A DNA stretch of 24,254 nt, taken from the IMG/VR virus record IMGVR_UViG_3300042691_005220, positions 1 to 24,254 of that record; one strand, written 5' to 3'. The DNA comes from a virus. Within the stretch, counting starts at the first letter, position 1. Each line of letters starts with the position of its first letter. Under the pieces are notes generated by a model. The model was not told the origin of the DNA. It did no database searches and was given only the letters and a program-made list of their open reading frames with translations. A program made the translations under genes and the position numbers. Below are positions 12,951 to 23,837 of the stretch, piece after piece.

Positions 12951-13421
12951 ATGACCAAAGATGAACTCAATCTCAAACTGTCAGAAGTGGCAGAGTTTCG
13001 TATGCCCAAACTCACAGCCAGTGATATCAAAATATCTAAACAAAAGGCCAGAGGCAAAGGTCGCCCCACAAAAGAATGGTTGTATCAAGAAGAACATGAA
13101 GAAGTTTTTATAGATATGTTTCAGGGCATCAATCCCACACACAATCCTGAATTGGTCAAGGTCAAAATACAGGCCATAGACTGCGAAGACTGCGGAGCTC
13201 ACTGTGAGAATGGCAGACAAATGGAAATCAAGTTTTATAAATCCGCGCCCAATCACGTGGCACATTGGCGTAAGCGTTGCAAGACCTGCAACAAGTATCG
13301 TGATCCCAACACAGGACTATACACACTGCCACAAGGTCCTTCTTGTCAAGTGTTTCTCAATTGGGCCAAAGCAGAATTTACTGCCAGAAATAAACTCACT
13401 AAAAAGCAATCAGATAAATAA
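12951..13421 (+). CDS. Zinc-ribbon protein with AT-hook-like motif, unknown function
   Basis: A 156-residue basic protein. Residues 32-40 (K-A-R-G-K-G-R-P-T) resemble an AT-hook. Cys78-x2-Cys81 and Cys110-x2-Cys113 form two CxxC knuckles about 29 residues apart, as in a zinc ribbon or treble clef; Cys85 and Cys132 are further candidates, and an H-W-R-K-R precedes the second knuckle. DNA or RNA binding is likely by inference; a regulatory or nuclease-accessory role is possible. No Shine-Dalgarno precedes the ATG, and an AT-rich TAATAATTAT lies just upstream, so a leaderless mRNA is possible. It is the first gene of the accessory block. Confidence 0.7.
   Translation: MTKDELNLKLSEVAEFRMPKLTASDIKISKQKARGKGRPTKEWLYQEEHEEVFIDMFQGINPTHNPELVKVKIQAIDCEDCGAHCENGRQMEIKFYKSAPNHVAHWRKRCKTCNKYRDPNTGLYTLPQGPSCQVFLNWAKAEFTARNKLTKKQSDK
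13413..13420 (+). promoter_or_regulatory. T4-late-like promoter motif (GATAAATA) for a small RNA
   Basis: GATAAATA overlaps the last codons of the zinc-ribbon gene. With T4 spacing, +1 would be A13426, exactly the first paired base of the three-hairpin structure at 13426-13543. No open frame starts nearby, so the product would be a non-coding RNA. Confidence 0.4.
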
Positions 13422-13425
13422 TTTT

Positions 13426-13543
13426 AGCAGAGTCCTTTCCTGGAAGATGGTTGCACATATATTGGGTTCTACTGCCATTGGACCCAACTCTGTTAGAAGC
13501 CCGAGGCAATCTTGGGCTTCGCCTTGACTGCTTTGGCAGTTTT
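13426..13543 (+). ncRNA. Candidate structured small RNA (three hairpins plus terminator-like end)
   Basis: Three hairpins occupy most of a gene-free stretch. The first has an outer 7-bp stem (13426-13432 with 13488-13494, one G-U) enclosing a directly adjacent inner 8-bp stem TTGGGTTC/GGACCCAA (13462-13469 with 13480-13487). The second has a 10-bp stem GAAGCCCGAG/CTTGGGCTTC (13496-13505 with 13511-13520, one G-U) and a GCAAT loop. The third is ACTGC/GCAGT (13527-13531 with 13536-13540) followed by TTTT, like a short terminator. A late-promoter-like motif predicts transcription from 13426. It does not fold as a tRNA. It could instead be a 3' untranslated region of the upstream gene. Confidence 0.5.
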
Positions 13544-13574
13544 ATCACTTTACAACAGCTTTTTGTTATGTTAT

Positions 13575-13582
13575 TATAAATA
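13575..13582 (+). promoter_or_regulatory. T4-late-like promoter motif (exact TATAAATA)
   Basis: This is the one exact copy of the T4 late consensus TATAAATA in the window. It lies 25 bases before the ATG at 13608, with TTAGGAGAG as ribosome site between. Predicted +1 is near 13587-13589. It would drive the three overlapping genes 13608-15225. Confidence 0.55.
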
Positions 13583-13607
13583 CATTATAGCAACTTAGGA
13601 GAGCAAA

Positions 13608-13985
13608 ATGGCAATCAAACAGCCCTACATTGTATTAGACCAGCGACAGGGACACAGTCAAAAATACGGCACTGAAATGACCACTATCATAATGGTAGGA
13701 GTCAAAGACCGTAGAGAGTATGTCACCTACATTGACGCACCCAATCGCAATGTCAAACACTGGCAACACATCACTAATAGCCCCACACACGGCTTTGTGC
13801 TGAGAAACCTAGACACCACTAACAAAAGCACCAAAAAAGGTCAGACCATAATCAATGCGGATTCACAACCAATCATTGAATGGGAAACTGACACCTTGGA
13901 TGAAGTGTTGGCGGATGCTCAGAAGTTTTGGGCAGAAGAAGACAAACGCAATGGCAGTGATAAGTTTGGAGATCTATTTGAATGA
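13608..13985 (+). CDS. Conserved-type phage protein of unknown function
   Basis: A 125-residue soluble protein without membrane segment. The first half is beta-rich (P-Y-I-V-L-D-Q-R, Y-V-T-Y-I-D-A-P-N-R-N). The middle holds H-I-T-N-S-P-T-H-G-F-V-L-R-N-L and the motif I-I-N-A-D-S-Q-P. The C-terminal third is a charged helix ending in an acidic G-D-L-F-E tail. An acidic tail of this type can serve as a partner-binding peptide, as in single-strand binding proteins, but no OB-fold signature is clear to me. It has a good ribosome site and an exact TATAAATA promoter motif, and overlaps the next gene by four bases. Function not assigned. Confidence 0.65.
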   Translation: MAIKQPYIVLDQRQGHSQKYGTEMTTIIMVGVKDRREYVTYIDAPNRNVKHWQHITNSPTHGFVLRNLDTTNKSTKKGQTIINADSQPIIEWETDTLDEVLADAQKFWAEEDKRNGSDKFGDLFE

Positions 13986-15292: not shown

Positions 15293-15466
15293 ATGAAACT
15301 ACTATGCACAATGTCAGATGAAGAATTTGACCAAATTGAACCCCACATTCAATGCCGTGAATGGGCAAACCCCATGGCAGACGAATACATCTTTTATGAC
15401 GCCACTGAGCAATTCCAATTCATGTTGGCCCTCTTTTCAATAACCACCTATACCAGCGGAGAATAA
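15293..15466 (+). CDS. Small acidic protein, unknown function
   Basis: A 57-residue acidic protein opening M-K-L-L-C-T-M-S-D-E-E-F, with W-A-N-P-M-A-D-E-Y near 24-32 and a mildly hydrophobic stretch F-M-L-A-L-F-S-I near 43-50 that is too short and polar-flanked for a sure membrane helix. The ATG follows GGATAAAAA, a weak ribosome site, 67 bases after the polymerase-like gene. That gap holds an ACAC-rich stretch (15226-15242) and nothing else I can name. The stop TAA is part of the AATAAATA promoter motif of the next gene. Codon use resembles that of its neighbours, so it is probably real. Confidence 0.5.
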   Translation: MKLLCTMSDEEFDQIEPHIQCREWANPMADEYIFYDATEQFQFMLALFSITTYTSGE

Positions 15467-15469
15467 ATA
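15462..15469 (+). promoter_or_regulatory. T4-late-like promoter motif (AATAAATA), leaderless type
   Basis: AATAAATA ends four bases before the ATG at 15474. With T4 spacing, +1 would fall on or next to the A of that ATG. There is no room for a Shine-Dalgarno between motif and start, so a leaderless mRNA is predicted. The motif overlaps the stop codon of the small gene upstream. Confidence 0.45.
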
Positions 15470-15473
15470 TATT

Positions 15474-15818
15474 ATGCCAAGAAGCGGACTAAGACCTCAT
15501 ACATGGTTAATTGGAACAGATCCCGTTGATCACAAACTCTATACTGATTGCCAACGAGCACGAGCCCAGGCTCATTTTCGTGGCGAAGCGTGGACTATTA
15601 CAGAACAAGAATACATTGCACTATGGCGCAAGGATGATCTTTATCTCAAAAAAGGCAGAACCATTATGAGCATCTGTTTGACCATGAGTGATCCAGATCT
15701 AGGTTGGCACATAAACAATGTTGAATTGATCAGTAGACAAGATCATTTTAAGAAATGCAATCAATCAAAGAATGGCATGCCAAGAACACGCCGTCGCAAG
15801 GAGAAGACCCATGCTTGA
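15474..15818 (+). CDS. Conserved-type phage protein with degenerate HNH/endonuclease-VII-like C-terminus
   Basis: A 114-residue basic protein. Residues 9-52 (H-T-W-L-I-G-T-D-P then Y-T-D-C-Q-R-A-R-A-Q-A-H-F-R-G-E-A-W then I-T-E-Q-E-Y-I-A-L-W-R) form a compact conserved-looking core. The pattern C-L-T-M-S-D-P-D-L-G-W-H-I-N-N-V-E-L (68-85) followed by His91 resembles the 'sidR.d...GY...Nv....H' end of HNH/endonuclease-VII-like nucleases, but the upstream zinc knuckles and catalytic His pair are not evident. It could be a nuclease remnant or a binding protein. The C-terminus (R-T-R-R-R-K-E-K) is strongly basic. The start has no Shine-Dalgarno (see the promoter motif at 15462). Confidence 0.6.
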   Translation: MPRSGLRPHTWLIGTDPVDHKLYTDCQRARAQAHFRGEAWTITEQEYIALWRKDDLYLKKGRTIMSICLTMSDPDLGWHINNVELISRQDHFKKCNQSKNGMPRTRRRKEKTHA

Positions 15819-16915: not shown

Positions 16916-16923
16916 ACTAAATA
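16916..16923 (+). promoter_or_regulatory. T4-late-like promoter motif (ACTAAATA)
   Basis: ACTAAATA, the same variant as at 126, lies 76 bases before the ATG at 17000. With T4 spacing, +1 is at 16929-16930, the first base of a small hairpin (16929-16944). The predicted leader of about 70 bases carries the switch-like hairpins listed at 16929-16982. Confidence 0.5.
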
Positions 16924-16928
16924 GTCTG

Positions 16929-16982
16929 TAGGGAACATTTCCTATAACAGACAACCATATGTTGTCTGAGTAGACAACATAT
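16929..16982 (+). promoter_or_regulatory. Structured 5' leader with mutually exclusive hairpins
   Basis: The leader of the gene at 17000 begins with TAGGGAA/TTCCTA (16929-16935 with 16939-16944, one bulged G). Then AGACAAC, GTTGTCT and AGACAAC follow one another. Hairpin A pairs CAGACAAC (16948-16955) with GTTGTCTG (16961-16968), a perfect 8 bp with a CATAT loop. Hairpin B pairs ATATGTTGTCT (16957-16967) with AGACAACATAT (16972-16982), a perfect 11 bp with a GAGT loop. A and B share the middle arm and cannot coexist. Hairpin B ends six bases before the AAGGAGAC ribosome site. It may be an RNA switch, a stability element or a dyad operator. Confidence 0.6.
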
Positions 16983-16999
16983 CAATCAAGGAGACAAAT

Positions 17000-17398
17000 A
17001 TGTCAGCAGCATCAAATTATCTAGAGAACAAGATTCTCGACCACGTTCTAACCGCAACAGCATACACACAGCCATCACGCTTCTTGGCTCTTTACACAGC
17101 CAGCCCAGGCGAAGCAGGCAGCCACACTAATGAAGTTTCTACTTCAGGCACAGCCTATGCTCGTCAAGCAGTGACATTTGCAGCCGCAGCCAGTGGTAGT
17201 TCTGCTACCAACGCTACCGTGACATTCCCAACTGCCACTGCCAACTTTGGAACTATCACTCACGTGGCAGTGGTTGACAGTGATGTAGAAGGTTCAGGCA
17301 ACGTGTTGTTCTACGGTGCAGTCACAACCAGCAAGACCATTGAAACAGGTGACACATTCCAGGTAAGTTCTGGCAATTTGACTATCAGCCTAGACTAA
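17000..17398 (+). CDS. Tail-fibre-associated structural protein (marine phage type)
   Basis: A 132-residue beta-rich protein of a type common in marine phages, with M-S-A-A-S-N-Y-L-E-N-K-I-L-D-H-V (1-16), R-F-L-A-L-Y-T-A-S-P-G-E-A (27-39), A-Y-A-R-Q-A-V-T-F (52-60), F-G-T-I-T-H-V-A-V-V-D and G-N-V-L-F-Y-G-A-V near the end. It is annotated in relatives as a tail or fibre protein, and its fold is probably a beta sandwich. It is a single-gene unit: own promoter motif, structured leader, strong AAGGAGAC site and a strong terminator. That suggests high, separately controlled expression, as for a multi-copy structural or decoration protein. Confidence 0.7.
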   Translation: MSAASNYLENKILDHVLTATAYTQPSRFLALYTASPGEAGSHTNEVSTSGTAYARQAVTFAAAASGSSATNATVTFPTATANFGTITHVAVVDSDVEGSGNVLFYGAVTTSKTIETGDTFQVSSGNLTISLD

Positions 17399-23350: not shown

Positions 23351-23358
23351 AATAAATA
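23351..23358 (+). promoter_or_regulatory. T4-late-like promoter motif (AATAAATA), leaderless type
   Basis: AATAAATA ends five bases before ATG 23364. With T4 spacing, +1 is exactly the A of that ATG and no Shine-Dalgarno is present, so a leaderless mRNA is predicted. It separates the fibre region from the packaging genes; the 43-base gap holds no clear terminator. Confidence 0.5.
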
Positions 23359-23363
23359 TTCAT

Positions 23364-23837
23364 ATGAATGCACAAGAAGCCCTTGAATTAGGTCTTGAAC
23401 CCGCCACACCTGAAACAGAAGGCACTCAAGAAACCTTTGAGATTATTCCCTATGTGGAACCAGAGCGTGATCCCTCCAAAACAGGACCACAGCCCAAGAA
23501 ATTAGTAGCAGTAGAAGTCCTAGGCTATGAAGTGGGCAGAGGCCTACGCAAGAAGGTTGTGAGCCCAGAAGATGTCTACAAACTAGCCGCTTTGGGCATG
23601 AGCAATAGAGAAATTGCTCGTTGGTTTGACATTGATCATCAGGTGGTAAACTACAATTTTCAAACAATCATAGATAAAGGCCGTGAGGACATGAAAACCA
23701 GTCTAAGGCGTGCTATGCTCAAGAACGCTATGAGTGGCAATGCCGCATTACAGATCTTCTTGGCGAAAAATTTACTTGGAATGTCAGACAATCCAGGCAC
23801 CAAAGAAGATGACAAGATCTTACCTTGGAATGATTAA
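23364..23837 (+). CDS. Candidate terminase small subunit (HTH protein)
   Basis: A 157-residue protein. Residues 1-65 are acidic and probably partly disordered. Residues 68-104 are a helix-turn-helix (P-E-D-V-Y-K-L-A-A-L-G-M-S-N-R-E-I-A then F-D-I-D-H-Q-V-V-N-Y-N-F). Residues 113-140 (S-L-R-R-A-M-L-K-N-A then N-A-A-L-Q-I-F-L-A-K-N-L-L-G) match the C-terminal helix pattern common in phage small terminases, which recognise packaging sites. The next gene is a methyltransferase and TerL would be expected beyond the window. A transcription regulator is the alternative. The ATG has no Shine-Dalgarno. Confidence 0.65.
   Translation: MNAQEALELGLEPATPETEGTQETFEIIPYVEPERDPSKTGPQPKKLVAVEVLGYEVGRGLRKKVVSPEDVYKLAALGMSNREIARWFDIDHQVVNYNFQTIIDKGREDMKTSLRRAMLKNAMSGNAALQIFLAKNLLGMSDNPGTKEDDKILPWND

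Follow-up and report, generated by a model that had tools for sequence, protein, structure and literature searches.

A conserved structured RNA of small freshwater siphophages is a candidate C4-like antisense regulator of the adjacent operon

The antisense RNA Sar of phage P22 blocks a phage mRNA at its start region. CopA is a plasmid copy-number antisense RNA whose loop-initiated pairing blocks translation. RNAII of pMV158, also a plasmid copy-number antisense RNA, likewise blocks translation through pairing initiated at a loop (PMC4485353). The C4 RNA of phages P1 and P7 (RF01695) is cut by RNase P out of a co-transcript, and its loops occlude a ribosome-binding site (PMC5320573). In the annotation of phage P1, C4 lies directly upstream of its target sites a2 and b2 on the same strand; these sites precede icd, and icd overlaps ant1. 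Folded for comparison, C4 formed a closing stem with two inner hairpins.

The window analyzed here is a 24,254-base IMG/VR virus record (IMGVR_UViG_3300042691_005220) from a siphophage, with recognisable tape measure, tail and terminase-like genes. An earlier note on this DNA had described the motif GATAAATA at 13413-13420 followed by a series of stems. All of them were present (Table 1), and the region folded better than shuffled sequences did. Its minimum free energy was -49.9 kcal/mol versus -34.4 kcal/mol for the shuffles (z = -4.54), and none of 200 shuffles was as good. The RNA is probably about 105-120 nt long, and in the window it likely ends at P5. An ORF of 107 aa in a different frame (13204-13527) runs across these hairpins and was treated as chance.

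Table 1. Features of the RNA and its surroundings, in window coordinates.
Feature	Position	Strand	Basis or remark
Zinc-ribbon-like ORF, 156 aa, just upstream	12951-13421	+	Homologs in relatives end at the TAAATA of the RNA
TAAATA promoter-like motif of the RNA	13415-13420	+	Relatives; genome-wide enrichment upstream of starts
P1, closing stem	13426-13432/13488-13494	+	Fold; covariation
P2, small hairpin	13433-13444	+	Fold; longest own helix
P2 segment CUUUCCUG	13435-13442	+	Can pair with leader 13596-13603
GGUUGC linker	13449-13454	+	Complementary to leader GCAAC 13590-13594; duplex prediction
P3, 8-bp hairpin	13462-13469/13480-13487	+	Fold; covariation
P3 loop, 10 nt, UACUGCCAUU	within 13462-13487	+	Loop in nearly all relatives
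UGCCAUU in P3 loop	13473-13479	+	Complementary to AAUGGCA 13607-13613
P4, 10-bp G+C-rich terminator-like hairpin	13496-13505/13511-13520	+	Fold; hairpin here in relatives inspected
P5, small hairpin, then TTT	13527-13531/13536-13540; whole 13527-13543	+	Sequence; fold
Promoter-like TTTACA-17-TATTAT of next transcript	13549-13582	+	Overlaps TAAATA 13577-13582
Putative target leader GCAAC..UAGGAGAG (Shine-Dalgarno) and AAUGGCA at start codon	13590-13613	+	Complementarity
OB-fold SSB/RPA/PriB-like protein, 125 aa	13608-13985	+	AlphaFold pLDDT 85.6; Foldseek, VIA

Relatives were gathered with both flanking proteins as queries and by scanning for a DNA pattern. The same element was found at the same position in about 29 distinct phage loci, and wherever the zinc-ribbon ORF served as the query, the element lay directly 3' of it. 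The carriers are small, uncultured freshwater siphophages of about 30 kb that are abundant in lakes; one of them (G010) has a terminal redundancy of 123 bp, i.e. a complete genome of about 29.6 kb. A covariance model (R1) was built from 15 loci. It found one strong copy per record in 14 of 14 related records and independently recovered L013 and a later distant set with 42 to 75 bits. Annotated phages gave no match, whether the query was the DNA or either flanking protein, and neither did bacterial genomes. Matches from a first loose pattern scan were mostly chance and were discarded. Three loci from a stricter scan (L138, L143, and L145), with neither TAAATA nor P1, were also rejected as chance matches.

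Across the relatives, stem P1 encloses P2 and P3, and a G+C-rich hairpin follows. In the aligned stems, 92.4% of the cells were paired, and 11 of 14 pairs had changes on both sides (five of eight pairs in P1 and all six counted pairs in P3). The covariation score was 0.534 versus 0.171 for shuffles, and slid controls also failed. The alignment fitted with R1 leans to the model's own structure; an independent MAFFT alignment (n = 15) agreed on the covariation. The loop of P3 consists of ten bases ending in UGCCAUU, and the stem sequences beneath it are quite different. The earlier note had named compensatory changes in related phages as the test of its stems, and these were found in strength. 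P1, P3, and P4 proved to be conserved, whereas the conservation of P5 did not extend to all relatives. That the element is a conserved structured RNA is nearly certain.

The start of the RNA is predicted at about 13426. In every relative listed, TAAATA is followed, after 4-5 nt (nearly always 5), by AG[C/T] at the start of P1. Because this spacing is fixed, it supports the predicted start, in agreement with the A13426 proposed before. In the window, GATAAATA, which is TAAATA plus two preceding bases, overlaps the last codons and the stop (13419-13421) of the upstream ORF, and part of its conservation could be coding. The protein encoded there gave a structure prediction of low confidence (pLDDT 55.5), which was left aside. 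Among the relatives, the stop of this ORF overlaps TAAATA in either of two registers while the position of the motif is unchanged; therefore, the coding frame does not explain where TAAATA is placed.

TAAATA was counted in 11 related genomes. It occurred 111 times on the coding strand versus 20 times on the other strand, and 54 of the 111 (49%) were located 5-45 nt before a predicted start versus a background of 4.6%. In a ranking of common hexamers, only Shine-Dalgarno-like pieces came as high. TAAATA appears to be a genome-wide promoter-like motif in these phages, suggesting a TAAATA promoter class in siphophages of about 30 kb. It has the core of the T4 late promoters (TATAAATA) and lies equally far from the inferred start. 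A difference is that the phages here are siphophages of about 30 kb and that some sites also overlap sigma-70-like elements. A PHROGs scan of 10 ORFs of G010 (mostly of unknown function) recognised no factor of the gp55/gp33 type, although distant forms could be missed. Of the earlier proposal of a T4-late-type promoter, the results bear out the core and the spacing. The motif, its spacing and the terminator-like hairpin are consistent with a discrete, promoter-linked and terminated RNA as suggested earlier, and we infer that it exists as a separate molecule.

Behind the terminator-like hairpin there are a second TAAATA, a short leader and a gene, the start of which is AUGGC in most relatives. 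The central part of the RNA shows 6-15 bp of complementarity with the 5' leader of this next transcript. Free-energy duplexes with large internal loops allowed were noisy, so contiguous helices were used instead. The longest helix was 13-15 bp in L007, L116, L136, and L004, 12 bp in L140, 9-11 bp in L005, L139, L144, L029, and L212, and 6-8 bp in the remaining loci, the window included. The near-invariant UGCCAUU loop is complementary to the AAUGGCA start region. [A/T]TGGC[A/T] was found at +16 to +30 past the next TAAATA in all listed leaders except that of L144. A mini-ORF preceding the gene provides the AUGGC target in L004 and L212; the pairing elements of L212 have swapped their order, and both still match. 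The earlier suggestion of an sRNA, a decoy or a mimic is thereby narrowed to an RNA whose loops are complementary to the next transcript at its leader and start codon.

Besides the conserved structure and the promoter-like motif, we observed that the complementarity changes along with its target. Distinct RNA/leader matches were AUUUUCCUGGUAAG/CUUACCAGGAGAAU, UUUGGUUGCACA/UGUGCAACCAAG, UCAUUCUAUUCUCCG/CGGAGAAUAGAAUGG, and GUCUGUCA/UGACAGAC. L144 and L004 carry matching insertions in both RNA and leader, and in L183 the loop AGCCAUUG matches an altered start codon context, CAAUGGCU. Own and permuted RNA-leader pairs were then compared, with one representative per class. For 17 classes, the summed energy of own pairs was -256.9 kcal/mol versus -186.8 ± 10.6 kcal/mol for permuted pairs (p ≤ 2e-4; this and the following permutation p-values are optimistic because the classes are related by descent). 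The first six groups gave 1/720 permutations, and the eight early classes alone gave p of about 2e-4 to 6e-4. The pairing had been spotted by eye in early loci, and only the later set is out-of-sample: for these nine later-fetched classes, p was about 0.001 with 24-32-nt leaders and 0.015 with 40 nt. When dimer energies were used, with intramolecular folding and opening of the RNA charged, p was ≤8e-4. A mirrored-leader control kept a residual signal (median p 0.06), and the complementarity is partly generic anti-Shine-Dalgarno. Antisense pairing of the RNA with the next transcript is likely on these comparisons. The window's own pairing, with 8 bp plus another 7 bp at the start codon region, is modest and among the weaker ones. 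Its own leader ranked 9 of 26 by dimer energy, and its own start ranked 17 of 1866 candidate starts; since other candidates rank above this start, the mechanism in the window is inferred mainly from the relatives.

The best matches of the 125-aa protein behind the RNA were RPA, SSB, and PriB (Foldseek probability 0.98, E 8e-3; VIA Z up to 6.7), modest scores that indicate its fold and not its function. It has a short acidic C-terminal tail and, judged by the modeled fold, likely binds single-stranded DNA. The first gene of the presumed target operon is OB-fold SSB-like in most relatives. In G006, G016, and L007, a different protein lies behind the same kind of RNA and leader. The RNA-leader match persists across these two protein families, suggesting that RNA and leader form one module. 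From the 125-aa ORF on, stop/start overlaps follow in series in the window (13982, 14206); the first gene overlaps the next in most relatives, not in all. Because the genes after the first vary, we abandoned the notion of a replication initiator encoded in every downstream operon.

We consider it rather probable that the element is a C4-like antisense RNA that represses translation of the adjacent operon. The RNA would start at P1 from a TAAATA-type phage promoter and end at the terminator-like hairpin. A hairpin loop and the linker, both enclosed by P1, would present the complement of the next leader and its Shine-Dalgarno region, and the near-constant UGCCAUU loop would pair with AAUGGC(A) at the start codon. 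The RNA would cover the ribosome-binding site and the start codon, and translation of the first gene would be repressed. Through the stop/start overlaps, the genes behind the first would also be repressed, and the operon could be silenced. For repression acting in trans, we put the chance somewhat above even.

Similar to the case of C4, the RNA has a closing stem and inner hairpins with target-pairing loops or linkers, and it immediately precedes the target leader on the same strand. Both have two pairing elements, one of them at the ribosome-binding site, and in both the first target gene overlaps the next. The a' element of C4, CUGUCAA, resembles CUGUCA of several relatives, a 6-7-nt match that may be chance. 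Unlike C4, promoter-like motifs and a terminator-like hairpin are located between the RNA and its target here, one loop is complementary to the start codon itself, and the order of pairing elements is opposite in most members (L212 has the C4 order). Judged by the TAAATA spacing, the RNA would be initiated directly rather than processed by RNase P as C4 is. The RF01695 model matched none of 15 records at E ≤ 10, with phage P1 as the positive control at 68.8 bits, and R1 did not match phage P1. Because the C4 model fails in both directions and the RNA has its own promoter-like motif and terminator-like hairpin and a loop that reads the start codon, we do not count it as a C4 member; it is of the same kind and built alike. 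No Rfam family matched the RNA at gathering score in the search that the earlier note had called for, and ARAGORN found no tRNA, so that the tRNA mimicry considered there finds no support.

As with P22 Sar, this would be a phage antisense RNA at the start region of a phage mRNA; Sar comes from the opposite strand with full complementarity, whereas here the RNA is on the same strand and uses loops. The CopA/RNAII type shares the loop-initiated block, sometimes via a leader peptide, and a mini-ORF stands at the target in L004 and L212. In contrast, that type is cis-antisense with perfect complementarity, and a replication initiator was not identified here. If true, the element would give the C4 type of same-strand phage antisense RNAs a second, sequence-unrelated family, unusual in having a loop that matches the start codon itself. 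Since many phages show joint changes in RNA and target, reporters can test the pairing without an isolated phage. Possible, though doubtful, is a wider reading. The element would be an autonomously transcribed two-loop RNA of an origin independent of C4, a retargetable lock with a near-constant loop that reads the start codon and a variable loop that co-evolves with the leader. This module would travel with different genes, and its T4-late-like TAAATA promoters would work without T4 machinery.

The same base pairs would also serve if the RNA were the 3' UTR of the upstream gene and masked the next ribosome-binding site only within a read-through transcript, the next gene then being translated only from the mRNA of its own promoter. 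In favor of this, RNA and target are in tandem on one strand, and the upstream ORF has its stop codon where the RNA begins. However, a terminator-like hairpin and a second promoter intervene in the coding-clade loci inspected, the TAAATA-P1 distance is fixed, and the best AUGGC-type target in L218 (12 bp, with wobbles) is 1.2 kb off, behind a GIY-YIG ORF. We regard such action in cis as unlikely.

The loops might instead act on many AUGGC phage mRNAs, host mRNAs or ribosomes, as a riboregulator or anti-Shine-Dalgarno decoy, and the match to the neighbor would be incidental. About a third of the Shine-Dalgarno-preceded starts of ORFs ≥60 aa in these phages (75 of 228) are ATGGC, a second gene in G007 and G009 fits both loops too, and L144 keeps the UGCCAUU loop with a target start lacking AUGGC. 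Yet in many classes the extended complementarity tracks the own leader, and in several genomes the own start came first among real candidates, which makes this explanation quite improbable. A structured 3' end that serves stability and termination of the zinc-ribbon mRNA without regulatory pairing would suit strong hairpins sitting at a stop codon, but it leaves the UGCCAUU loop on varying stems, the TAAATA spacing and the covariation with the downstream leader unexplained, and is very improbable.

One clade has no gene at the start of the transcript right behind the RNA, which counts against the antisense reading. In the distant clade (L013, L209, L210, L213, L216-L218, and L220), a TAAATA comes after the RNA and leads into a long non-coding stretch that is conserved and measures about 500 bases in L218 (L218:3165-3716). 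A GIY-YIG-like ORF comes after it in several of these loci with ORFs listed. The stretch had no Rfam matches at gathering score and is possibly an intron or some other large RNA. More distant still, L149 (2600-2760) and L151 have TAAATA at the same place, and the hairpin behind it is simpler but keeps the loop (UAUUGCCAUU or UAACGCCAUU), possibly a minimal form of the element.

TAAATA was also seen elsewhere in the window. At 16918-17000, a hairpin, GACAACCATATGTTGTC, stands between TAAATA and the gene at 17000, and this arrangement of TAAATA and hairpin start recurs in many relatives. At 128-179, a small hairpin (GCAGGAAGGACCTG) follows TAAATA; its stem varies and stays paired in relatives. 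At 15464-15474 and 23353-23364, TAAATA is very near the start codon, and the mRNAs may be leaderless there if +1 is about 6 nt downstream.
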